Positions 16,713-28,830 of a stretch of DNA of 35,845 nucleotides are shown in pieces. This stretch comes from an uncultured Clostridia bacterium. GTDB lineage: Bacteria; Bacillota; Clostridia; Oscillospirales; Acutalibacteraceae. Each line of letters opens with the position of its first letter. Positions within the stretch are counted from its first letter, which is position 1. The position numbers were made by a program, and so were the translations under genes. The DNA lies in the NCBI GenBank assembly GCA_947169815.1, contig CAMVRG010000003.1, positions 1-35,845 of the forward strand. Reading direction: 5' to 3'. The notes under the pieces were generated by a model. It saw nothing but the letters and a program-made list of their open reading frames with translations, had not been told where the DNA came from and ran no database searches.

Positions 16713-16869
16713 TAACTTGCGTAAAATGCGTTTTATATAATTAAATTTATAATTTACTGTGAACTTAATTGTTCTTCAACCTACTGCGGATTTTCTGCAG
16801 CTGGTCAGAGGTTGCGACGACGGTAAAGTACGCATTAATCGTAAATTCTTTATGGAGGAAAACAGAAAA

Positions 16870-19800
16870 GTGGAAACAAAAAAATCTAAAGTTTTTACTC
16901 GTAAGCTGATTTCATTGGTTCTCGCGGTTGTAATGGCTGTTTCCGGATTCTTCGGAGTTGCTATGTCTGCTCAGGCATATCAAAAAGGCGGCTATAACGA
17001 TTCTAATGTTAAAAGCAATCTTTTAGCATGGGTCGACGCTACCGACGATCAGACTTTCGAGGCTCTTCTTGACTATTTAGATGATTTGCTTATCAATTTG
17101 GACTGGGATTCGATCAATGCAACCATTACAGCGGCCGACATTCCCGGAAAAATTCCCAGTGCTCTTGGAATAGCTTTGGAACTTACTCTTGACATCAACC
17201 ACCTTCCTGCTGTTTATGTTCATGCTAAGTCAAAAGCGGCTGCTAAGTTACTCGGTGTAGATATTGACACGACTATTTCTGGAAGAGTTACCAGCATCGA
17301 CGATGTTATTGATCTTTTATTCCAGGTCAAAACGGCAGTAAGTGATATTACCGCAGAAGCGGGTGGTATTGCAAGCATTGCGAATATCAGTCTTGATACA
17401 TTGTCAAGTATTAACTGGGACGTATTCGGCGGTTATTTCCATAATTCTGTAAGCCAGGGTGCAGCTGGATATAAAGCTAGCAACGGTTCTTACAGAAGTA
17501 ATAACTCTGCTAAATACATAGTTAAAGGTCTGTTAAAGTGGTTACTTAATGACAATTACCATAACGGAAACAATTCGAGCTTGGTTCGTAATCTTCTTTA
17601 TGGTGAACTTATGGTCATTAAAAACACTAAAGACAACAAAGACCTCATTGATATTTACAAGATGTTAGAAGGTACTCTCGGCCTTGAAGACTGGGAAAAA
17701 GACGGTGAGACGAGACTTTATCAGACAGGAAACGGTATCGTTTACAATCTGCTTAAATCTCTTATCGTTAAGAATGTGGGTCTTTATGACGATGGTGTAG
17801 ACCGTTTGAAGACTGATAACAGTTGGGTCTATGACCAGGAAGCATATAAGATTGCCAATTACTATCTTCAGAAACTCAGCTTCGAGATTACATATCCCGA
17901 GAGAGTTGATTTCACCGGCTCAGGTATGAAAGACGCCGAGGGTAACGATATTGAAGGTTACCGCAACGATTCTTCCAAGCGCCGTTATGCAATTGCTAAG
18001 GCTGCAGGCAAGTTCGATGAATCAACAGGTAAAATCGACGCTGCGTTTGCTACGGCAAATAAGTGGGATCCCAACCTTATTTATTCAACTGAGGAAGGTT
18101 ATGAAGGTAACGTACTCGTTGCTAAGTATGGCTCAACTACATTCTCAATTAATGCAAATGATACACTTCATTCTGCATTTATGAGAGCGGTTCCGATTGT
18201 TTGGAAAACAGCTCTTAAGCCTACCGTACAGCTTGTACACGTTAACTATAGCGGTCATGATGAGCACGGTACAAACTTTGATAACGCTTTCTATTATTGG
18301 GTAAGCGATAATATCGGCTGGAACAGAACAGATTGGACTCAGAACTATACTGCTGCTAACATGGCTGCTTTCACAGCTGCTAAGTATCAGGATTACGGTT
18401 TTGATTCAGCTGCTGATTTCGAAGAATACATTGCTTATACTTTAACTTATAACAAAGAAAGAGTTGCTAAGAATAAGTATTACAACTGGAGAGACATCGA
18501 CGCAAGCATTCTCTTTAACGAAGTTCGTTACAGCCCGCTTGCTGATCAGTATTTCCACATTCAGACTGGTCCGCTTAACCTCTACTTTGAGGAAATCGGA
18601 TGTCCGACTGTAATTGATTTCTTTGAGAATTCATTTAATGCTTCCGGAACACTCATCAGCCAGATTGACGACGTACTCGTTGCCGCTATGGCTGACCTCT
18701 TCCCGAACAGTAAGAACAACACAGTTGGTAAGACAGTCGAGACTGACGGTGAATACAGCGTTACTCCGATGACTCTTCCTGCACTTGCAGCTGATTCAAC
18801 AGGAACAGTTGCAGGAACAGTTTCAACTCTTATCAGCGACGCTGCTAAGGTATTACAGTATGCGGCTGACGCTACTGACGCAAACATTCTTAATTCGTTC
18901 TATGCGTTTAACGGCGCTAATACTCAGGTAACGGAAGCTAACCTCGAAGAGGCTATTATTCCGTTTGCAATCTCCGCTCTTAAGCATTGGTCTCTCACAG
19001 AGCCGATTCATGACAGCGACTGGGATAAGGTAAGCGATATTGAGTCAGGCGCAGTTGTTGCACTCAGCGAATATCTCAAGTACGTATATCCCGACAGAGA
19101 TTACTCACAGTACTATGACCTCGAAGAGAGAGACGCTGTCGTTGACGGACAGACAGTTGCTTCTTATAAGTACATCGTAGCTAAGTCAGACGAAAGCCTT
19201 CTTAACGACGTAATCGTACCTATGGCTGGCGACGCACTTCTCTTCGTTGTTACAGCTGCTGGCGTTCCTGTTTACAAGCAGACTCCCGGCGCTACAACCG
19301 TAGTAACTGAAGGCTATAACAACAATACCGGCAACGCTGAGATTCTTGATCCGTACAGCTATACCTTCTTCGGTAAGGGCTCAGGTATCGACAATGTTCT
19401 TTGGCAGACTATTAACGGTGTTGCTTGCTACTTCGCAGTAGATAAGGGCATTGCGGGTCTTGTAAACCTTGAAGGAAGAATTACCAAGTCACAGACCATA
19501 TGGCAGAATCTTGATGTAATTCTTAACAGATTCCTTCCCGCTCTTTCACCGCTCTTTAAGCAGGCTACATCAGCAGGCGACGGAGCTGTAAGCAACAGCG
19601 TAGGAACTATCAGCTCGAAGAAGCTTATCTGGGATCAGCTTGTATGCGGTCTTGCAGACGTTGGCGGACAGACTCTCTTCACTAAGGTATTCACTTATGT
19701 AGGAGATCTCTTCACTTGTGCACCGCTTACTAATTCAAAGATTCTCAACTTCGTTATCTTTGATGTTGTTAAACCTCTTCTTAATATTGTTCTTGGTTCA

Positions 19801-22569
19801 AGATCAACCACACAGAGAGCAATCATTAGTCAGACGGCATCAACTACAAACCCGGTTGACACATTCTTGAAGAGAGCTAACCTTATAGATGTATCTATTG
19901 ATAATCTTATTAAGAATCTCTACGAGGTACTCTTCGGCGGTGGCAATGCTAATGCTGCTTCTGTAAGTACTTACAAAGCGCTTGGATTTGGTCTTAACGC
20001 GCTTCATATTCTTCCTAAACTTGGCGATAACAGAATCGGCGGCGTAACTGCAACTCTTAAAGAGCATGCTTTCACGAGCACGAATATTAACGTTAAGATG
20101 GATATTAGAAACGAGTCTTGGGGCTTTGCAAGCTTCTATAAAAAGGCTGACGGCACTATCGCTCAGCGCGGAAGATATTCAGCTAATATTGTTAGCTATC
20201 AGGTTCTCAATCCTGATGGAACTGTTAACAACAATTTCTCGTTTGCTAAGGACGGAGATCAGTACTTTACTACAGGCGCATTAGCTCCCGAAGGATATAC
20301 AAGAGTTGTATTAAGCGGTACTGCTTCAACGAATACTCTTTATACAGTTGTTGTAAACTATACAATCGCTGCAGTTGACGCAAACGGCGGAAACGTTGTA
20401 AGAAACTATTCAACAAAGGCAGTTGATTTCTTCTATGTTGGTAACATTATTGACGAAGCTTGGACCGAAGCTTTCAGCGGAAATCATGTAAGCTCTACTG
20501 CTCCGGAAACGCTTGTTACTGCTTCAAATAATGCTACAACAGGTATTAATTATACAAGTGCAAACTATATTGGACTTGGAACTAATGCCGGTGGAGCTGC
20601 TTATGCTTATTATGTTAAGAACGGCGGTTCTGCAACAACAGTTGCTAACTCTTATGCAACAGTAGCGGCTAATACGCCTAACTATTATACTAAGGCTGGC
20701 GTTCCTTCAACTAATGCCAATGCATCAGCAGCATGGATTGCTGTTGATAAGAACGGTAATACCGTATACGGCGAAGATGACGTTGAACCTGCTGAGACAA
20801 CTATTGCAGAGGATCCAAACGTAATCGGATATCGTAAAGTAACAGACGAAGAAAACAACGAAAAAATTGTTGCTATCGCTGTTGACAGAACTACAATTGG
20901 CGATTATATCCCCGGTACTCCGCTTGCTGGCGTATATCTTAATACTGAGAGCTATTCAGTTGACGCATATCAGGCAGGTAACGCGGATGAAGGTGTTGAC
21001 GAGAAGTTTGGTGAAGCTCACGTAAGAATTATCTCTGGTGACAGCGAATCGGGACTTTCAACTGACTATGCTCCGATGGTTGTTAGAAATAATAAGAATT
21101 ATACATTCACCACTATTATTTCAACCGGCGATATTGATGGTCCTTATGGTTCGTTAAAGGGTCATTCAAAGGGTCTTGCTTCTCATTATCTCACTTCGAA
21201 TATTGCAAGAACTATATCAGCATATAATAATCTTAAGACTCCTCTTGCTACAGCTCTTAATCTTACTATTGCAAGCGGTATTAACGCATCTAACATCGCA
21301 ACTTGTCTCGATGTTGCTGATAACGATGAAAATCTTATTGACCTTGCTATTGCCAATCCGTCCGCAGAGGTTCAGAGTATAGTTAGTGATGTAATTGAAG
21401 CTCGCAGAGGCTGTAACAATATCAACTACAACTCACCCGCTCTCTATGAGAAGGGCGTTGATATGGCTAAGGAAGCTGAAGCACTTCTTGTTGCTGAGGC
21501 ACAGCAGGAAGAGAAGACGGCTGATGACGGTTCAACTTACATGGCTGATAAGGTTGATGAGGATGGCTATGTAGTATATAATTACTATTCATATTCACCT
21601 TCCGTTCTGCTTCTTGAGGCTGTAAGATCTTATAATACGCTTTACAAGCCTCAGGCTCAGATTGTTGCGTTCAACGCTTCTGCTTCAGGTAAGCTCGTAA
21701 CTGACGAGGTTGCTCACGCAACTTCTAAGTGCGACGACTATGACGAGGTAATCGCAGCTACTGCTAACGATTACAGCGACTTTACTGCTACTGTAGATTC
21801 AAGCGTAGAGCCTTACGAGTTCCCGTACTCATCCAAGGAAGGCCACGAGTATGACCTTATGGATACTTATAACGTAACTGTTGCAGCAGGCACAGAGCTC
21901 AAGTTCGGTGCTATCGGCACAGGCAACAAACTCGTTAACGAGGGTCCTGTAGTTTACTCGGCAGAATCCTGGAAGGTATACGTTGACGCACTCGGCGAAT
22001 GTATTGCAGCTATCAACAGCGGCGCTACAATCTCTGATTGCTATGACGCAAGATGCCACCTTGTAATGGCTGAAAACAACCTCGAAGAGGGCGAAACCGA
22101 AGGCATTACAATCAGCGGTACAGTTTACATGGCTCAGGATGCTAACGGCACAACCGGTACATTCGGTGCTCGCGGACTTAACTTCAAGGTTGACGGCGAC
22201 TACGTACTTGACGCTGAAGGACAGCCTGCTGTAACCTCATCTGAGGCAGGTCACTACGGCGAATTCGAAATCGTAGTTCCCGAGAGAACGACTGAAATCG
22301 TTATCACAAGTGATACTACGGTTGACAGAACTGTAACTCTCAGCGGTACAGCTGACGTAAGCGGCGCTAACATTAAGGTTGTAACTCTTGATAACAACAA
22401 GGACGGTAAGGTTAACAACGTTGACTTCGGTGTATTCAAGAAGAAACTCAATGGTACAGATATTAAGTATGACCTTAATAACGACGATAAGGTTAACAAC
22501 GTTGACTTTGGTGCATTCAAGAAGATTCTGAACAAGAATATCAGCTATTCTGCTCAGTCTCTTGACTAA
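16870..22569 (+). CDS. Giant (about 1900 aa) secreted protein with C-terminal X-like module and type I dockerin
   Basis: Probable GTG start at 16870 behind GGAGG (alternative ATG 16852; ORF-track start 16759 unlikely); signal peptide KLISLVLAVVMAVSGFFGVAMSAQA; C-terminal LDNNKDGKVNNVDFGVFKKKLNG...YDLNNDDKVNNVDFGAFKKILNK. Confidence 0.9.
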   Translation: METKKSKVFTRKLISLVLAVVMAVSGFFGVAMSAQAYQKGGYNDSNVKSNLLAWVDATDDQTFEALLDYLDDLLINLDWDSINATITAADIPGKIPSALGIALELTLDINHLPAVYVHAKSKAAAKLLGVDIDTTISGRVTSIDDVIDLLFQVKTAVSDITAEAGGIASIANISLDTLSSINWDVFGGYFHNSVSQGAAGYKASNGSYRSNNSAKYIVKGLLKWLLNDNYHNGNNSSLVRNLLYGELMVIKNTKDNKDLIDIYKMLEGTLGLEDWEKDGETRLYQTGNGIVYNLLKSLIVKNVGLYDDGVDRLKTDNSWVYDQEAYKIANYYLQKLSFEITYPERVDFTGSGMKDAEGNDIEGYRNDSSKRRYAIAKAAGKFDESTGKIDAAFATANKWDPNLIYSTEEGYEGNVLVAKYGSTTFSINANDTLHSAFMRAVPIVWKTALKPTVQLVHVNYSGHDEHGTNFDNAFYYWVSDNIGWNRTDWTQNYTAANMAAFTAAKYQDYGFDSAADFEEYIAYTLTYNKERVAKNKYYNWRDIDASILFNEVRYSPLADQYFHIQTGPLNLYFEEIGCPTVIDFFENSFNASGTLISQIDDVLVAAMADLFPNSKNNTVGKTVETDGEYSVTPMTLPALAADSTGTVAGTVSTLISDAAKVLQYAADATDANILNSFYAFNGANTQVTEANLEEAIIPFAISALKHWSLTEPIHDSDWDKVSDIESGAVVALSEYLKYVYPDRDYSQYYDLEERDAVVDGQTVASYKYIVAKSDESLLNDVIVPMAGDALLFVVTAAGVPVYKQTPGATTVVTEGYNNNTGNAEILDPYSYTFFGKGSGIDNVLWQTINGVACYFAVDKGIAGLVNLEGRITKSQTIWQNLDVILNRFLPALSPLFKQATSAGDGAVSNSVGTISSKKLIWDQLVCGLADVGGQTLFTKVFTYVGDLFTCAPLTNSKILNFVIFDVVKPLLNIVLGSRSTTQRAIISQTASTTNPVDTFLKRANLIDVSIDNLIKNLYEVLFGGGNANAASVSTYKALGFGLNALHILPKLGDNRIGGVTATLKEHAFTSTNINVKMDIRNESWGFASFYKKADGTIAQRGRYSANIVSYQVLNPDGTVNNNFSFAKDGDQYFTTGALAPEGYTRVVLSGTASTNTLYTVVVNYTIAAVDANGGNVVRNYSTKAVDFFYVGNIIDEAWTEAFSGNHVSSTAPETLVTASNNATTGINYTSANYIGLGTNAGGAAYAYYVKNGGSATTVANSYATVAANTPNYYTKAGVPSTNANASAAWIAVDKNGNTVYGEDDVEPAETTIAEDPNVIGYRKVTDEENNEKIVAIAVDRTTIGDYIPGTPLAGVYLNTESYSVDAYQAGNADEGVDEKFGEAHVRIISGDSESGLSTDYAPMVVRNNKNYTFTTIISTGDIDGPYGSLKGHSKGLASHYLTSNIARTISAYNNLKTPLATALNLTIASGINASNIATCLDVADNDENLIDLAIANPSAEVQSIVSDVIEARRGCNNINYNSPALYEKGVDMAKEAEALLVAEAQQEEKTADDGSTYMADKVDEDGYVVYNYYSYSPSVLLLEAVRSYNTLYKPQAQIVAFNASASGKLVTDEVAHATSKCDDYDEVIAATANDYSDFTATVDSSVEPYEFPYSSKEGHEYDLMDTYNVTVAAGTELKFGAIGTGNKLVNEGPVVYSAESWKVYVDALGECIAAINSGATISDCYDARCHLVMAENNLEEGETEGITISGTVYMAQDANGTTGTFGARGLNFKVDGDYVLDAEGQPAVTSSEAGHYGEFEIVVPERTTEIVITSDTTVDRTVTLSGTADVSGANIKVVTLDNNKDGKVNNVDFGVFKKKLNGTDIKYDLNNDDKVNNVDFGAFKKILNKNISYSAQSLD
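22387..22542 (+). other. Type I dockerin domain (two Ca-binding F-hand-like repeats)
   Basis: DNNKDGKVNNVD...FKKKL and DLNNDDKVNNVD...FKKIL. Confidence 0.9.
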
Positions 22570-22630
22570 TTGTCACACTATATAATGTTTTAATAATTAT
22601 TTATTAAATCGTTAGAGCTTCCGTAAGTCC

Positions 22631-22650
22631 CCCCTCTTCGGAGGGGGGCA
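22631..22650. other. GC-rich UUCG-loop hairpin without U-tract
   Basis: CCCCCCTC-TTCG-GAGGGGGG between two same-strand genes. Confidence 0.8.
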
Positions 22651-22780
22651 GGGAAAAGTTTAATGCGTGTTCCTGATATGAAGGTTCTTTCACCATGGTG
22701 GTATGAGGAACGTGCATTGAAGAGCTATCACGTATTGTTGTTTTTACAACAGAGAGCAGGAATTTTTGGAGGTGATAAAA

Positions 22781-23866
22781 TTGAATACCGTAAGAAAATT
22801 CTTTGCCGCCCTGATGCTTCTTAGCTTTACAGTTTTCTGCGCTCCGCTTTGTGCCTCGGCACAGACGGGAACGCTCGGTACGGAAACTCCGTATTTATTC
22901 TGTTCGTTTTATGACCAAAGCGGCGATGCAGTCGACGGCAACGCCCTGACCTCGGGAGAATATAGAGTCGACGTAGTTCTCTCAGGGATGGAAAATGCTG
23001 CGGTAATGCAGTTTGAGGCAACAGCCAACTTGAGTTCGGGCGTCTTGACTGACCTGAGCGTCCTCTCAACATATGCCGATACTGACAACAGCTTTGAAGA
23101 AGCTGCCGCAGAGTATATTGACGACGGACAGATAGCCGTAATTTTAGTATCCGAAAATGAGGATACCTCCCCGATAGATTCGTCGGGTACGGTTTTAGCG
23201 TCCTTCAGCGCAACGGTAAATTGTAACGGAACAATCGACTTTAACGATTATTTCAACTTTGTAACCGACTCCGACCTTACCTTCTTTGAGGCGGATTTCG
23301 GAGACGGCGATGATTGTTACGCCCTCACTCAGGGCGAGGGAATAGCGTATACCGTTTATCCAATGACGGCGGACGTGACTCCCGTATTTAACAATGACAT
23401 AATTATCAGCGGTACTGTTCTTATTTCGCAGAACGAAAACGGAAATACGGGTACCTTCGGCGCTCGCGGAATTAACTTTAAGGTGGGCGGCGAGTACGTT
23501 AAGGATTCCGGCGGAAACAACGCGGTTACCTCGTCCGCCGCGGGACACTACGGAGAGTTTGAAATCACGGTTCCTGCGGGAACTACCGAAATCACTCTCA
23601 CCGGTGCTTCGACGATAGACAGAACGGTTACGCTCAGCGGTAACACTGATATAAGCGGAGTTTCAATTCCGATTATTTACTGCGATTATAACGACGACAG
23701 TAAAGTTAACAATATTGATTTTGGTGCATTTAACAAAAAGTTAAACGGAACTGATGTTTTATACGACTATAACAATGACAATAAAGTCAATAACATTGAT
23801 TTCGGAGCATTCAAGAAAATTCTTAACAAAACTGTAAATTATCCCGAATTATCGCTTGATAATTAA
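22781..23866 (+). CDS. Secreted protein: cohesin-like N-terminal domain, X-like module, type I dockerin
   Basis: GGAGG at 22768-22772 precedes TTG 22781; signal peptide KFFAALMLLSFTVFCAPLCASA; GEYRVDVVLSGMENAAVMQFEATANLSSG...; C-terminal CDYNDDSKVNNIDFGAFNKKLNG...YDYNNDNKVNNIDFGAFKKILNK. Confidence 0.88.
   Translation: MNTVRKFFAALMLLSFTVFCAPLCASAQTGTLGTETPYLFCSFYDQSGDAVDGNALTSGEYRVDVVLSGMENAAVMQFEATANLSSGVLTDLSVLSTYADTDNSFEEAAAEYIDDGQIAVILVSENEDTSPIDSSGTVLASFSATVNCNGTIDFNDYFNFVTDSDLTFFEADFGDGDDCYALTQGEGIAYTVYPMTADVTPVFNNDIIISGTVLISQNENGNTGTFGARGINFKVGGEYVKDSGGNNAVTSSAAGHYGEFEITVPAGTTEITLTGASTIDRTVTLSGNTDISGVSIPIIYCDYNDDSKVNNIDFGAFNKKLNGTDVLYDYNNDNKVNNIDFGAFKKILNKTVNYPELSLDN
23678..23830 (+). 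other. Type I dockerin domain
   Basis: Two F-hand-like calcium loops as above. Confidence 0.88.
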
Positions 23867-23906
23867 TTATTGATTTAAGAATCAATACAATTTGGAGGAA
23901 AAATTA

Positions 23907-26900
23907 ATGAAAAAATCTTTTAAAAGAGTAATCGCTTCCTTCCTTGCTGTATTAATGGTAATGTTTGCTATGCCTTTCACAGCTATGGCATACGGCGCTG
24001 ATGAAACTCCGAACTTCGGTTTAGTTTTCAACGCATTTACCTTTAATAACCAGTACTTCAACTATACTCAGAAAGCTACTGCAGTCACAAACCGTGGCGT
24101 TAAGGATATGCCTCTTGAGTATGTTGAAACTTCAAACGGCGGACAGATGTGGGCAAGGAAGTCAATTGCTGATACAGCAGGCTTTACTGCCGCTGGCGGT
24201 GCAAGCGGAAATAATATCAGATATAAGAAGACCGGCGACTATCAGCTTCAGAACGGCGACTACTTTACACTTTCAATAACTGTTGAAAATATTGCAACAG
24301 TATTTGCTTGGGGTGTAAACCTTGAGTATACAGGTATTACTCCTGCAACGATTTATAAGTGGTCTTATGAAGATCCTGATTCTGGTGAAACGGCTACAAG
24401 CCTTACGCTTATTTCTAAGGACGATAACTCCGCCCTTCAGACTACTGTTGAAGATTTAGGTCTGGATTATGATAACGATGTAGTCTATGAAGAATTTGCT
24501 CCTGAGGGACTTCCGATTACCCAGATTTCTTCAGGTTCAACTTACTTCAAGAATCAGAGAGACTTCGACGTTGGCGGTTCAACCTATGAATCTTGGGGTA
24601 TCGCAGCCGGCGGTGCGTCAAACGGCGATTACACCGACCTTTCTTCTTGTCCTACACAGGGCTCAGGCGTTAACACCTATAAGAACCCCGAGACAGGTGC
24701 TCCGAGCTATAACTTTGACTACAGAGTACCTATGGTTACTTACCTCTTCAAGGTAACTGATAAGGATAATATCACCTTCGGTCTTCATGAAGATGAAGCT
24801 TACTATACTTCAGACTTCGACCACATTGCAAAGGATGATATTTACAACTACAATAAGTATGATACCGACGGAGTTACCGAGCTTGCAAAGGGCGCAACCG
24901 TAAACTTTATGGGAAGCAACGTATACAACACTTCTCCGGTTGTTACTTATCCGACAGTAACTATCACTACTCCGGCAGGATATCAGGACCTCAGCTACAC
25001 AGCTGACGCTTCTACAACTACTTACGCTGTACCGAACCTTGCTGATTACACCAAGGCTGCTGATGATGATTATCATTACACGGCACAGTGGAAGGACAAC
25101 AACGTTCCTTCAGGTACATTCGGTTCTGCTGACGAGACCTTCGAGATTGAGTTTGCTCAGGCTGCTCATACATTCGACGAAGGTGTTGTTGACCCCGCAC
25201 CGACATGTACAACTCCCGGTACTAAGACTTATACCTGTACCGTTTGCCAAAAGACCGCTACCGAGTCTGTAACAGATACAAACGCTCATTCATGGGGCGC
25301 TTGGGCTGCTGACGATTCAACTTGGGCTACAACTACTGACCAGACAGTAGAGGCTAACAACAGCGCTACTGTTACATTCAAGAGAGTTTGCGCTAACTCT
25401 GCTTCTCACACCGAGTCTCAGAACGTAAACGCTACTGTATCTTCATTCACAGCTGCTCAGGAAGGTGTTGCAGGTTCTGTAACCTTCTCGGCAACTTATG
25501 AAGGCGTAACAGCTACTAAGACTGTTGAGCTTGAAGCTCTTGCTCATACTCATAACTACACAACACGTCAGGAAATCCCCAATACTCGTGTTGCTTCAAC
25601 ATGTAAGACAGCAGGTTCATATCAGACAGCTCTCTACTGCGCATGCGGAGAGTATGATGCAAATTCTGTTGAGACTGAAACCCTTCCTCTCGACGCTAAC
25701 AACCACGAGAACCTTCAGAACATGGCTGCTATCGCCGCTACTTGCGAAACTGCAGGAAGAACTGCAGGTAAGTACTGCGACGCTTGCGATACATGGACCG
25801 AAGGCGGCGAAACAATTCCTGCTAAGAACCATGACTTCTCAGGCGCTATTGATATCACCTGGGCTCAGACAGCTGAATCAGGCGAGAATAAGTGGACTGC
25901 ATCAGGTGTTCAGCACTGCGTAAACGATGCATCTCACACTCAGGAAATCGCTGTTGATACAGTTTACAGCCATAAGGACGCTTCTAATAAGGAAGCTGGC
26001 TACGATAAGTGGGAAGCTAAGGTAAACGGTGAAGTTCAGGATACTAAGACTGAAACAATCGCTGCTGCAGGCGTTAACATCACAGTTGCTGCTACTGACC
26101 TTGGTTCAGTAGAGGGCTCAATCGAGACCAACGGCTCTGAGGTAACTAGGGCATTTGCATATGGCGACAAGTACACAGTAACAGCTGTTCGTCCCGCTGG
26201 CACAACATTCCTTGGCTGGCAGATTAACGGCAAGCTCGTATCAACAACTGAGACTTACTCAAGCGTAGCATACACAGACCTTACTCTCGTTCCTGTATTC
26301 CAGGAGACTGCAGACGATAACATCAACGTATTCTTCTATGATAAGTATGGTAACACCATCAAGGCATTCAAGGATGTAACAGTTGCTGAGTATCAGGCTG
26401 CAGTTGCTGAGGGAGTTCCCGCAGGCCCGACATATCCCGGATACACATTCGCAGGATATGACAAGTCTGACGAAGATATTAAGGCTAACGACAAGTCCGC
26501 AACATTCACAGCACAGTACGAAAAGGCTGACACAACCTATACTGTAAACGCTCCCGGCGCTACTATCACAGCAACAGAGGGTACAGTAGACGGTGAAACC
26601 GCTACCGTTCCTTATGACGCTCAGGTAACAGTTAAGGCAGCAGGCGCAGCAGGTTGGGCAATCGACGGCGTAACAGTTGCTTACGGCGAAGAGTACACCT
26701 TCTACGTAGGTGCTGATGTAACAGTTACACCTGTAGCTGATGCAGAGGTTGCTCCTATCGTTAACATCATCAACGTAACAAACAATGCTCCGAACTACAC
26801 AGTTCTTGCAACACGTGCAGCAGGCAACGCAACAATTAAGCAGCGTGGCTGGATGTACGGCAGAAGCGCTTCTAACGCTGACCTTGCTGACCTTGAGGCA

Positions 26901-27068
26901 GCTAAGGCCGCAAGCGGCGTAAGAGTTAAGATTGCTGACGCAAGTGCGTCTGACCAGTTCGCTCTTACCTTCAAGGCTTCAGCAGCAGGTACAATCAGAG
27001 TTCGTGCATTCATCGTTGATGCAAGCGGTAACGTATACTACTCAGCTATTGAGGACGTAGCCGTTTAA
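23907..27068 (+). CDS. Large secreted multi-repeat protein (CxxC repeats, InlB/Flg_new-like repeat)
   Basis: GGAGG RBS, ATG 23907, signal peptide KRVIASFLAVLMVMFAMPFTAMA; TCTTPGTKTYTCTVCQ, TCKTAGSYQTALYCACGEYD, TCETAGRTAGKYCDACDTW; NVFFYDKYGNTIKAFKDVTV...GYTFAGYDK. Confidence 0.88.
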   Translation: MKKSFKRVIASFLAVLMVMFAMPFTAMAYGADETPNFGLVFNAFTFNNQYFNYTQKATAVTNRGVKDMPLEYVETSNGGQMWARKSIADTAGFTAAGGASGNNIRYKKTGDYQLQNGDYFTLSITVENIATVFAWGVNLEYTGITPATIYKWSYEDPDSGETATSLTLISKDDNSALQTTVEDLGLDYDNDVVYEEFAPEGLPITQISSGSTYFKNQRDFDVGGSTYESWGIAAGGASNGDYTDLSSCPTQGSGVNTYKNPETGAPSYNFDYRVPMVTYLFKVTDKDNITFGLHEDEAYYTSDFDHIAKDDIYNYNKYDTDGVTELAKGATVNFMGSNVYNTSPVVTYPTVTITTPAGYQDLSYTADASTTTYAVPNLADYTKAADDDYHYTAQWKDNNVPSGTFGSADETFEIEFAQAAHTFDEGVVDPAPTCTTPGTKTYTCTVCQKTATESVTDTNAHSWGAWAADDSTWATTTDQTVEANNSATVTFKRVCANSASHTESQNVNATVSSFTAAQEGVAGSVTFSATYEGVTATKTVELEALAHTHNYTTRQEIPNTRVASTCKTAGSYQTALYCACGEYDANSVETETLPLDANNHENLQNMAAIAATCETAGRTAGKYCDACDTWTEGGETIPAKNHDFSGAIDITWAQTAESGENKWTASGVQHCVNDASHTQEIAVDTVYSHKDASNKEAGYDKWEAKVNGEVQDTKTETIAAAGVNITVAATDLGSVEGSIETNGSEVTRAFAYGDKYTVTAVRPAGTTFLGWQINGKLVSTTETYSSVAYTDLTLVPVFQETADDNINVFFYDKYGNTIKAFKDVTVAEYQAAVAEGVPAGPTYPGYTFAGYDKSDEDIKANDKSATFTAQYEKADTTYTVNAPGATITATEGTVDGETATVPYDAQVTVKAAGAAGWAIDGVTVAYGEEYTFYVGADVTVTPVADAEVAPIVNIINVTNNAPNYTVLATRAAGNATIKQRGWMYGRSASNADLADLEAAKAASGVRVKIADASASDQFALTFKASAAGTIRVRAFIVDASGNVYYSAIEDVAV

Positions 27069-27084
27069 TCTAACATAATTTAAT

Positions 27085-27120
27085 AATTAACCGCCCTCTC
27101 CCTTCGGGGAGAGAGGGTTA
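27085..27120 (+). other. UUCG-loop intergenic hairpin
   Basis: CTCTCCC-TTCG-GGGAGAG core flanked by TTAACC/GGTTAA complementarity; no U-tract. Confidence 0.7.
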
Positions 27121-27138
27121 AGCATAGGAGGTACAATT

Positions 27139-27252
27139 ATGAAGGAGCTTTATACAAAGCCTGAGGTTGACCTTGAAGAATTTGAAACCGTAGATGTATT
27201 AACTGCATCAACTGGCGGAATCGACCAGGACTTTGATCCGGACGATATTTAA
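27139..27252 (+). CDS. 37-aa acidic peptide MKELYTKPEVDLEEFETVDVLTASTGGIDQDFDPDDI
   Basis: Below the ORF-track size cutoff; AGGAGG RBS (27126-27131) 7 nt before ATG; stop TAA 27250; immediately followed by strong terminator. Confidence 0.82.
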   Translation: MKELYTKPEVDLEEFETVDVLTASTGGIDQDFDPDDI

Positions 27253-27281
27253 TAGGTCCCAACTTCATAAAAACTCAAGGG

Positions 27282-27308
27282 GGGCGCGGAGCAATCCGCG
27301 CCCTTTTT
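27282..27308 (+). terminator. Strong intrinsic terminator after the small peptide gene
   Basis: GGGCGCGGA-GCAA-TCCGCGCCC-TTTTT. Confidence 0.93.
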
Positions 27309-27465: not shown

Positions 27466-28716
27466 TTATTTCTTTTCCTGTTCCTGCTCGGCTTTTAACT
27501 GCTTTGCGGTTTTTGTATAAATATATTCGATAAGCTTTTCCTTGTTTTTATCTATATCTATTGCGATTACGCTTGCGCCGCCCTTGTTGGCGTATTCCCA
27601 CGTTCCCTCAAAGGGTACCTTTTCCTGGAACATATCGCCGCTGATACAGAATCCCGCCATAGCGGCTACGCCTTTAAGCTGAGCTTTAGTTAAATCCGTT
27701 TCAATATACTCGGCGCTTGCGTTTGCCATTTTATAAAGCTTAAACGGGTTTTTCTTTGCCTTGTTGAGAATCGCCGTCATTACTGTGCGCTGTCTCTGAG
27801 TTCTGTTAAAATCGGTATCAATCTTTCTTATTCTGCAATAGGCGAGCGCCTGCTTTCCGTTAAGGGTACGCCTTCCCGCCTTGAGCTTAACGTTTCCGTA
27901 TCTGCCCTTATGGCTTGTTACCTCTTTTGCTTCCTTTTTAGTAACCTTGATTTCAACCCCGCCGACTGAATCAACAAGCGACTGGAACATTTCAAAATTA
28001 GTTACTATATAGCCGTCCACGTCTACGCCGAAATTATATTCGATTGCGTCAACTACTCCGCTGTATCCCGTTTTTCCCGTTGAGGCGTTGAGCCTCTGCT
28101 CCTTTTCAAGAGAGGGGACGTAAACCCAGGTATCTCTTAAAAACGAGGTCATTTTTATACAGTGGTGCTTCATATCAAGGGATATAAGCATCATAGTATC
28201 GGGTCGGCTCGTTTCCTTTTTCTGATTCTTTCTTGCGTCAACTCCGAGAAGAAGAATGTTCTTAACCGAACCGCTGTCTTTTAAATCCGCTGCGGCGACG
28301 TATTTATTATCGAGGTGCTCGTCGTAGTTCATCTTGGCGAGAACGCCCTCGACCATACCGACAAGAATAAGAATAACGGCGAGAATAACGGCGAGTACGG
28401 TAACTTTTCTCTTTTTCTTATTGCTTATCTTTTTCTTCGCCTGCGATTCCTGCTTTCTCTGAGCGCGCTGGTCGGCTCTCATTTTAAGATATTCCTCGCG
28501 CTCCCTCTGTTCTCTCAGTTCCTCCTCTGTAGGATAATTATTCCCGCCGTATCCCGGCTGATTATCTCTTATCTCGGCTGAGGAGGAATGCATCGGAACA
28601 TACTCGTCGGGAGTAGCGCCTCTGTAATAGTTCTCGTCCTCGGGAACGCTTCTGTCCCTGCTGTCGTTATTTATTCTTCTCTGGGGATTAAAGCCTTCGT
28701 TATCAAATCTCGGCAT
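27466..28716 (-). CDS. LytR-CpsA-Psr (LCP) family cell-envelope transferase
   Basis: ATG 28716 with AGGTGG RBS; TM VTVLAVILAVILILVGMVEGV; NILLLGVDARK, RPDTMMLISLD, SFLRDTWVYVP, RTQRQRTVMTAIL. Confidence 0.93.
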   Translation of the reverse strand: MPRFDNEGFNPQRRINNDSRDRSVPEDENYYRGATPDEYVPMHSSSAEIRDNQPGYGGNNYPTEEELREQREREEYLKMRADQRAQRKQESQAKKKISNKKKRKVTVLAVILAVILILVGMVEGVLAKMNYDEHLDNKYVAAADLKDSGSVKNILLLGVDARKNQKKETSRPDTMMLISLDMKHHCIKMTSFLRDTWVYVPSLEKEQRLNASTGKTGYSGVVDAIEYNFGVDVDGYIVTNFEMFQSLVDSVGGVEIKVTKKEAKEVTSHKGRYGNVKLKAGRRTLNGKQALAYCRIRKIDTDFNRTQRQRTVMTAILNKAKKNPFKLYKMANASAEYIETDLTKAQLKGVAAMAGFCISGDMFQEKVPFEGTWEYANKGGASVIAIDIDKNKEKLIEYIYTKTAKQLKAEQEQEKK

Positions 28717-28830
28717 AATTACCACCTTTTACCTTTTTAGTAGAAATAATTTTACTACATCGCAGGGCATATTTCAACTTTTATTTTAATAATTATTGAT
28801 TTTGTAATAATTTTCGTTTATTATATTAGT

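Follow-up and report, generated by a model that had tools for sequence, protein, structure and literature searches.

The peptide gene and the secreted protein in front of it

The DNA analysed here, referred to as the window, is a stretch of 35,845 nucleotides from a metagenome-assembled genome (88% complete) of an uncultured member of the Clostridia. On its forward strand a 37-aa open reading frame follows directly behind the gene for a large secreted protein, and the unit has the following features:

23892 to 27068 (+): gene for a large Sec-secreted protein directly 5' of the peptide gene, with signal peptide MKKSFKRVIASFLAVLMVMFAMPFTAMA; the same layout is seen across the family
26745 to 27065 (+): C-terminal domain (CTD) of that protein, an Ig/FnIII/PKD-like beta-sandwich common to most peptide-linked secreted proteins
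27087 to 27121 (+): hairpin with a UUCG cap, lying after the secreted-protein gene and before the peptide gene (RNA fold -20 kcal/mol, z -3.5)
27126 to 27131 (+): Shine-Dalgarno sequence AGGAGG, 7 nt 5' of the ATG, read from the sequence and kept in homologues
27139 to 27252 (+): putative LppA-like precursor peptide gene, 37 aa, MKELYTKPEVDLEEFETVDVLT|ASTGGIDQDFDPDDI, called from sequence, family conservation and dN/dS
27139 to 27204 (+): predicted leader, M1-T22, from conservation over 127 homologues and the leader logic of the linear polyphosphorylated peptides (LPP; PMC13381572)
27205 to 27249 (+): predicted core, A23-I37, variable and acidic after a fixed-spacing [TS]-x-S
27208 to 27210 (+): predicted phosphorylation site S24, core position 2, by analogy to LPP Ser+3
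27277 to 27308 (+): intrinsic terminator hairpin at the end of the unit (RNA fold -24.2 kcal/mol, z -4.94)

The reading frame (27139-27252) runs from an ATG start through 37 codons to a TAA stop. These signals, together with AGGAGG and a strong terminator, had been described in an earlier note on this DNA and were all borne out; none of 200 shuffled sequences was as stable as the terminator hairpin. The note was also correct that the peptide has neither a signal peptide nor Cys. No match to the peptide was found in Pfam or NCBIfam, and homologues were recovered from 36 of 60 relatives in a permissive single-sequence search and from 33 of 38 same-genus genomes in a profile search. The earlier note had staked its reading on conserved homologues and on a dN/dS away from neutrality: 127 distinct full-length homologues were obtained, and the copy in a sibling species (L034, uncultured Eubacterium sp.) differs by five synonymous and two non-synonymous changes, giving a dN/dS of about 0.09. 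Judged by these comparisons, the 37-aa frame is a real gene under purifying selection.

Peptide gene and secreted-protein gene are separated by 70 bp in the window, with the UUCG hairpin inside this gap, and mostly by 2-90 bp across the family; with this spacing the peptide and the secreted protein are probably expressed together. A hairpin occurs at the same place in L034, L006, L007 and L011, and in the window no T-run lies 3' of it. It is possibly an RNA-processing or partial attenuation element, and may set the ratio of CTD protein to peptide.

The secreted partner has 1053 aa from its likely start at 23907 and no Pfam match. A same-strand gene lies within 200 bp upstream for 74 of 89 distinct peptides, with a contig edge in the way for 6 of the 15 others, and at loci with enough upstream DNA this gene usually encodes a large protein with a signal peptide. 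Partner architectures vary and include repeat proteins (the window type) as well as S8 subtilase + LRR proteins; a lipoprotein gene often comes after those of the subtilase type. An iterated profile placed the CTD, about 110 residues long, in 53 of 73 upstream proteins and in 77 of 99 in a larger set. No Pfam family covers this domain; in an AlphaFold2 model (pLDDT 81) it is a beta-sandwich, and Foldseek matched the model to PKD/FnIII-type domains. Its two classes are probably one domain, as suggested by the iterated profile and common GFVY/ARAY motifs; hhalign of the two classes alone gave a probability of 56% (E 1e-4).

The pairing also holds in the converse direction. When the 43 CTD loci with the strongest matches in the genus were examined, 35 were followed on their own strand by a peptide gene no more than 500 bp away, and among the genus CTD matches no CTD-peptide pair was found on opposite strands. 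Eight strong and six of the weaker unmatched CTD loci were re-read: three weaker ones have a divergent peptide that the profile had missed, one strong locus is directly followed by an RRE gene, and another stops at a contig edge.

Two further large frames with weak dockerin type I matches lie upstream in the window (16759-23866) and belong to a gene order conserved in several species. The conserved LCP gene downstream (27466-28725) was rejected as a part of the system: it recurs together with the same neighbours in the same subset of loci, and we attribute its presence to local synteny.

Leader and core

Among the 127 homologues, Y/F-x-x-P near the N terminus is present in 125. A [T/S]-x-S could be placed in 118, of which 114 have its Thr at a distance of precisely 18 residues from the Tyr. 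The leader consensus across the family is YxxPx[VIA]xxx[FY]xxxD[VI][IL]TxS, represented in the window's peptide by Y5-x-x-P8-x-V10, F15 and D19-V20-L21-T22; the N-terminal segment that to the earlier note looked conserved in style is a feature of the family. By analogy with LPP leaders, these residues are predicted to form an RRE-binding motif. The sequence after T-x-S is variable, with a median of 17 residues; family cores have 23% D+E and 2% K+R, and a single Cys occurs in all of them.

A conserved 5' part followed by a variable 3' part argues for a leader, M1-T22, and a core, A23-I37, with a conserved S24. The leader-core split proposed in the earlier note is therefore upheld by conservation, with one amendment: the note had placed it at Gly-Gly, whereas conservation predicts it to lie at T22|A23. 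A GG does follow T-x-S in the window's peptide, as would suit a double-glycine (C39-type) bacteriocin precursor, but it is missing from most of the 127 homologues; being unconserved, it is not the leader/core boundary, and a double-glycine leader identity was rejected on this ground.

Probable maturation genes and their association with the peptide

The earlier note had found no maturation enzyme in the window. This is true of the window itself; every gene of a maturation machinery is, however, present on other contigs of the same genome:

C12, C93 and C110: one RRE each, PF05402 above cut-off
C93, 3260 to 3970: HprK-like kinase, assigned from motif, weak similarity and synteny; no Pfam match
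C93 and C12: NTP_transf_5 (PF14907)
C13, 23521 to 23946: SpI-like peptidase, with an ABC exporter gene adjoining on C13

The first lead to this machinery was an 88-aa PqqD-like protein adjoining the peptide in L037, L059 and L030. Genomes of other families have these parts gathered into a single cluster, in the order secreted protein, peptide, an optional lipoprotein, HprK-like kinase, RRE and S24/SpI-like peptidase. Clusters of this kind were read in L089, L091, L151, L152, L157 and L158, often with NTP_transf_5 and/or an ABC exporter added; L090 has the cluster parts with its secreted genes at the opposite end. Those of L089, L090, L151, L152 and L157 are complete, most of them with the NTP transferase and/or the exporter. 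Within the wider class, RRE, peptidase and kinase lie within about 1.5 kb in L220, L222 and L224. The radical SAM, YcaO or C39 enzymes that the earlier note had suggested looking for were not what emerged, the machinery being instead of the LPP/paeninodin type (RRE, HprK-like kinase, SpI-like peptidase and NTP transferase), and we do not regard the peptide as a radical-SAM or YcaO precursor.

The YxxP-binding Asn and Asp are found, 37 residues apart, in each of the three RREs from the window's genome, and over the RREs as a whole the Asn is present in 14 of 17 and the Asp in 13 of 17. The kinase family has a nearly invariant Walker A motif, SGTGK[ST]TH, and a weak NCBIfam similarity to ScmC/HprK-rel-A; against solved structures its sole match was the P-loop of PEP carboxykinase, which is weak and agrees with an HprK fold. 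The peptidase family alignment has GxSMxP with an aligned Ser, and invariant H75 and D90; it matched the archaeal-type signal peptidase TIGR02228 weakly, and no match was found among solved structures.

Three loci outside these sets were noted. In L162:8902-13726 (G049), RRE, HprK-like and SpI-like genes occur alongside a YxKP peptide that contains Cys and what may be a radical SAM gene; this is perhaps a related but distinct RiPP type. L147:11804-12931 (G033) has RRE and HprK-like domains in a single 398-aa frame, a possible natural fusion. In the window's own genome, L088:1554-2948 (C28) has a weak N-terminal PqqD match and resembles a SCIFF-type radical SAM maturase, separate from the LPP-type system.

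In the window's genus the machinery is not adjacent to the precursors, and the link there rests on co-occurrence. Over 37 same-genus genomes, in tests that carry no correction for shared ancestry, an RRE was found in all 32 genomes with the peptide and in none of the 5 without it (Fisher p 2.3e-6), with corresponding values of 1.4e-5 for the peptidase, 4.8e-5 for the kinase and 1.3e-4 for the CTD. Peptide, RRE, peptidase, kinase and CTD are all absent from the same five genomes (G004, G014, G018, G021 and G034). Across 245 genomes of the order, a strong RRE occurs in 40 of 46 peptide genomes vs 28 of 199 others (p 2.5e-21, likewise uncorrected for ancestry). Peptide and RRE lie 0.8-3.1 kb apart in 11 genomes, where about 0.5 would be expected by chance. 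The evidence that shared ancestry can least readily explain away is the physical linkage of these genes, which recurs in different families. The precursors themselves are dispersed, with up to 11 copies per genome here and up to 15 elsewhere in the class, where they again mostly lie behind large upstream reading frames.

The location of the enzymes, outside the window and on other contigs, could be taken to mean that the peptide works unmodified within the cell, regulating the secreted-protein operon or serving it as an adaptor, and that its link to RRE, kinase and peptidase is only taxonomic. We consider this very improbable, given that four components are jointly absent from the same five genomes, that peptide and RRE are closely paired in 11 genomes, that complete clusters occur in different families, and that the leader motif is the one bound by LPP RREs. 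The earlier note's proposal of a RiPP-type peptide coupled to the secreted proteins instead gains support from the leader/core split, the gene placement, the co-occurrence and the complete clusters.

Relation to known RiPP systems and possible role of the product

The closest known system is that of the LPP RiPPs of Bacilli, defined in PMC13381572 (Nat Commun, 20 May 2026) from the lppAKBSDN cluster of Paenibacillus alginolyticus. There, the LppA leader reads YxxPxVLxHQxIxFETxxS; LppB is an RRE that contacts YxxP via N33 and D70, LppK is an HprK-like kinase that polyphosphorylates Ser+3, and LppS is an SpI-like peptidase (S29/H68/D93) that cleaves after T-1 (PMC13381572). The Clostridia system has in common with it a short precursor with a YxxP leader and a variable C terminus, a discrete RRE whose Asn and Asp are spaced 37 residues apart like N33/D70 of LppB, an HprK-like kinase, an SpI-like Ser/His/Asp peptidase, an NTP transferase and an MsbA-like exporter, and the lack of a lasso B2 protein. 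The YxxP, the hydrophobic residue at -3, T-1 and a Ser thereafter are kept in the Clostridia leaders, whereas LxHQ and FET are not, and the full VLxHQxIxFET consensus is absent. Furthermore, the Tyr lies two residues farther from the predicted T-1 than in the Bacilli, the conserved Ser is at +2 rather than +3, and the acidic cores are shorter than the characterised LPP core of 45 residues. The Clostridia precursors are multi-copy and scattered behind secreted proteins, whereas those of the Bacilli lie in capsule loci. Since the gene set and recognition logic match while the leader consensus and spacing differ, we regard the system as LPP-type but not as a plain LPP member. By this analogy, the 37-aa frame is in all likelihood an LPP-type RiPP precursor, matured in trans by enzymes encoded elsewhere in the genome, and its mature product is very probably a short acidic phosphopeptide.

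Paeninodin/pseudomycoidin-type lasso clusters also have RRE, HprK-like kinase and nucleotidyltransferase genes together with [Y/W]xxP leader recognition, and the peptide might on that account be read as a lasso precursor. The paeninodin-type systems differ, however, in a Trp-type leader and a Gly in the RRE pocket, where the Clostridia system has a Tyr-type leader and Asn. No match to the B2 peptidase family PF13471 was found in the window's genome (G000) and it is absent from nearly all relatives, no cyclase occurs in the clusters read, and the cores are without the Gly1...Asp/Glu8-9 ring pattern. The missing B2 largely refutes a lasso identity, and a lasso or double-glycine precursor is to our minds the least credible of the readings considered here, with next to no chance of being correct. 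For the SynChlorMet (SCM) cassette, NCBIfam gave weak matches to ScmC for the kinases and to ScmD for one RRE, but far below family cut-offs, and the described Clostridia clusters have no radical SAM partner.

For an LPP-type pathway in these organisms, homology to the Paenibacillus lpp system is our basis for inferring each reaction, as well as where cleavage and phosphorylation would occur. The discrete PqqD-like RRE would bind the leader through Y5-x-x-P8, the HprK-like kinase would phosphorylate the conserved S24, and the cytosolic Ser/His/Asp SpI-like peptidase would cut at T22|A23. The acidic 15-residue core ASTGGIDQDFDPDDI with its phosphate, possibly decorated with a further group by the NTP_transf_5 enzyme, would then be exported by the MsbA-like ABC transporter.

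An LPP-type identity would bring Clostridia of the gut and rumen into a RiPP family whose first description, in May 2026, was from Bacilli, with a new layout in which a single enzyme set acts in trans on up to 15 precursors per genome, nearly each of them behind a large secreted protein. It would also provide an annotation for a large group of small reading frames without a family and for a CTD without a Pfam entry. The main text of PMC13381572 mentions neither Clostridia nor secreted proteins, and no earlier account of the arrangement was found in the further literature covered, many subscription papers lying outside that coverage; direct coupling of LPP-type precursors to large secreted proteins has apparently not been described before. 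The biological role of LPPs is stated to be unknown in PMC13381572, and the pairing of a partner protein and its domain with the precursor is a direct, testable lead on it.

The mature peptide may serve its partner protein at the cell surface, as a ligand, anchor or cofactor of the Ig-like CTD. This role is favoured by the pairing with CTD proteins and by the way in which core distance tracks CTD distance (77 pairs; r 0.56, partial r 0.48 given the leader), the leader itself tracking CTD distance less closely (r 0.41). Co-inheritance can explain part of the core/CTD correlation, and we therefore propose the role tentatively, at somewhat less than an even chance. A more specific form of it, which we hold a shade more tentatively still, is that a shared RiPP line makes many phosphopeptides and that each of these belongs to a single co-encoded surface protein, whose CTD recognises it. 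If true, the RiPP would be a fitted part of a secreted protein and not a free natural product.

The main rival to an accessory role is that the peptide is secreted as a pheromone and perceived by an AgrC-like histidine kinase together with a LytTR regulator. Short, exported, modified peptides are typical pheromones, and at five loci (L036, L038, L050, L051 and L056) Pfam matches identify two genes upstream of the subtilase-peptide units, one for a GHKL (AgrC-like) histidine kinase and one for a LytTR response regulator. Most peptide genes, however, including that of the window, have no such sensor pair beside them. If the product were a pheromone, there would also be no need for a genome to carry as many as 15 divergent paralogues that each accompany a different secreted protein; we consider a pheromone role unlikely. 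Several families of modified peptides that use MsbA-like exporters are antimicrobial, and diverse cores would also suit a bacteriocin-like RiPP. The cores are nevertheless strongly acidic and nearly devoid of Lys and Arg, unlike most bacteriocins; the peptides are tied to secreted structural proteins, and no pattern of immunity genes was seen next to them. We consider an antimicrobial function improbable.

A C-terminal motif is common to exported lipoproteins and a peptide core. Lipoproteins encoded after the peptide (L051:9875-10595, L036, L055, L057 and other c3 lipoproteins) end in D(K/S)(D/E)GWI(N/T/D)(K/R)WY, and one L051 peptide ends in DDEGWIDKWY, near-identical to this C-terminal motif.
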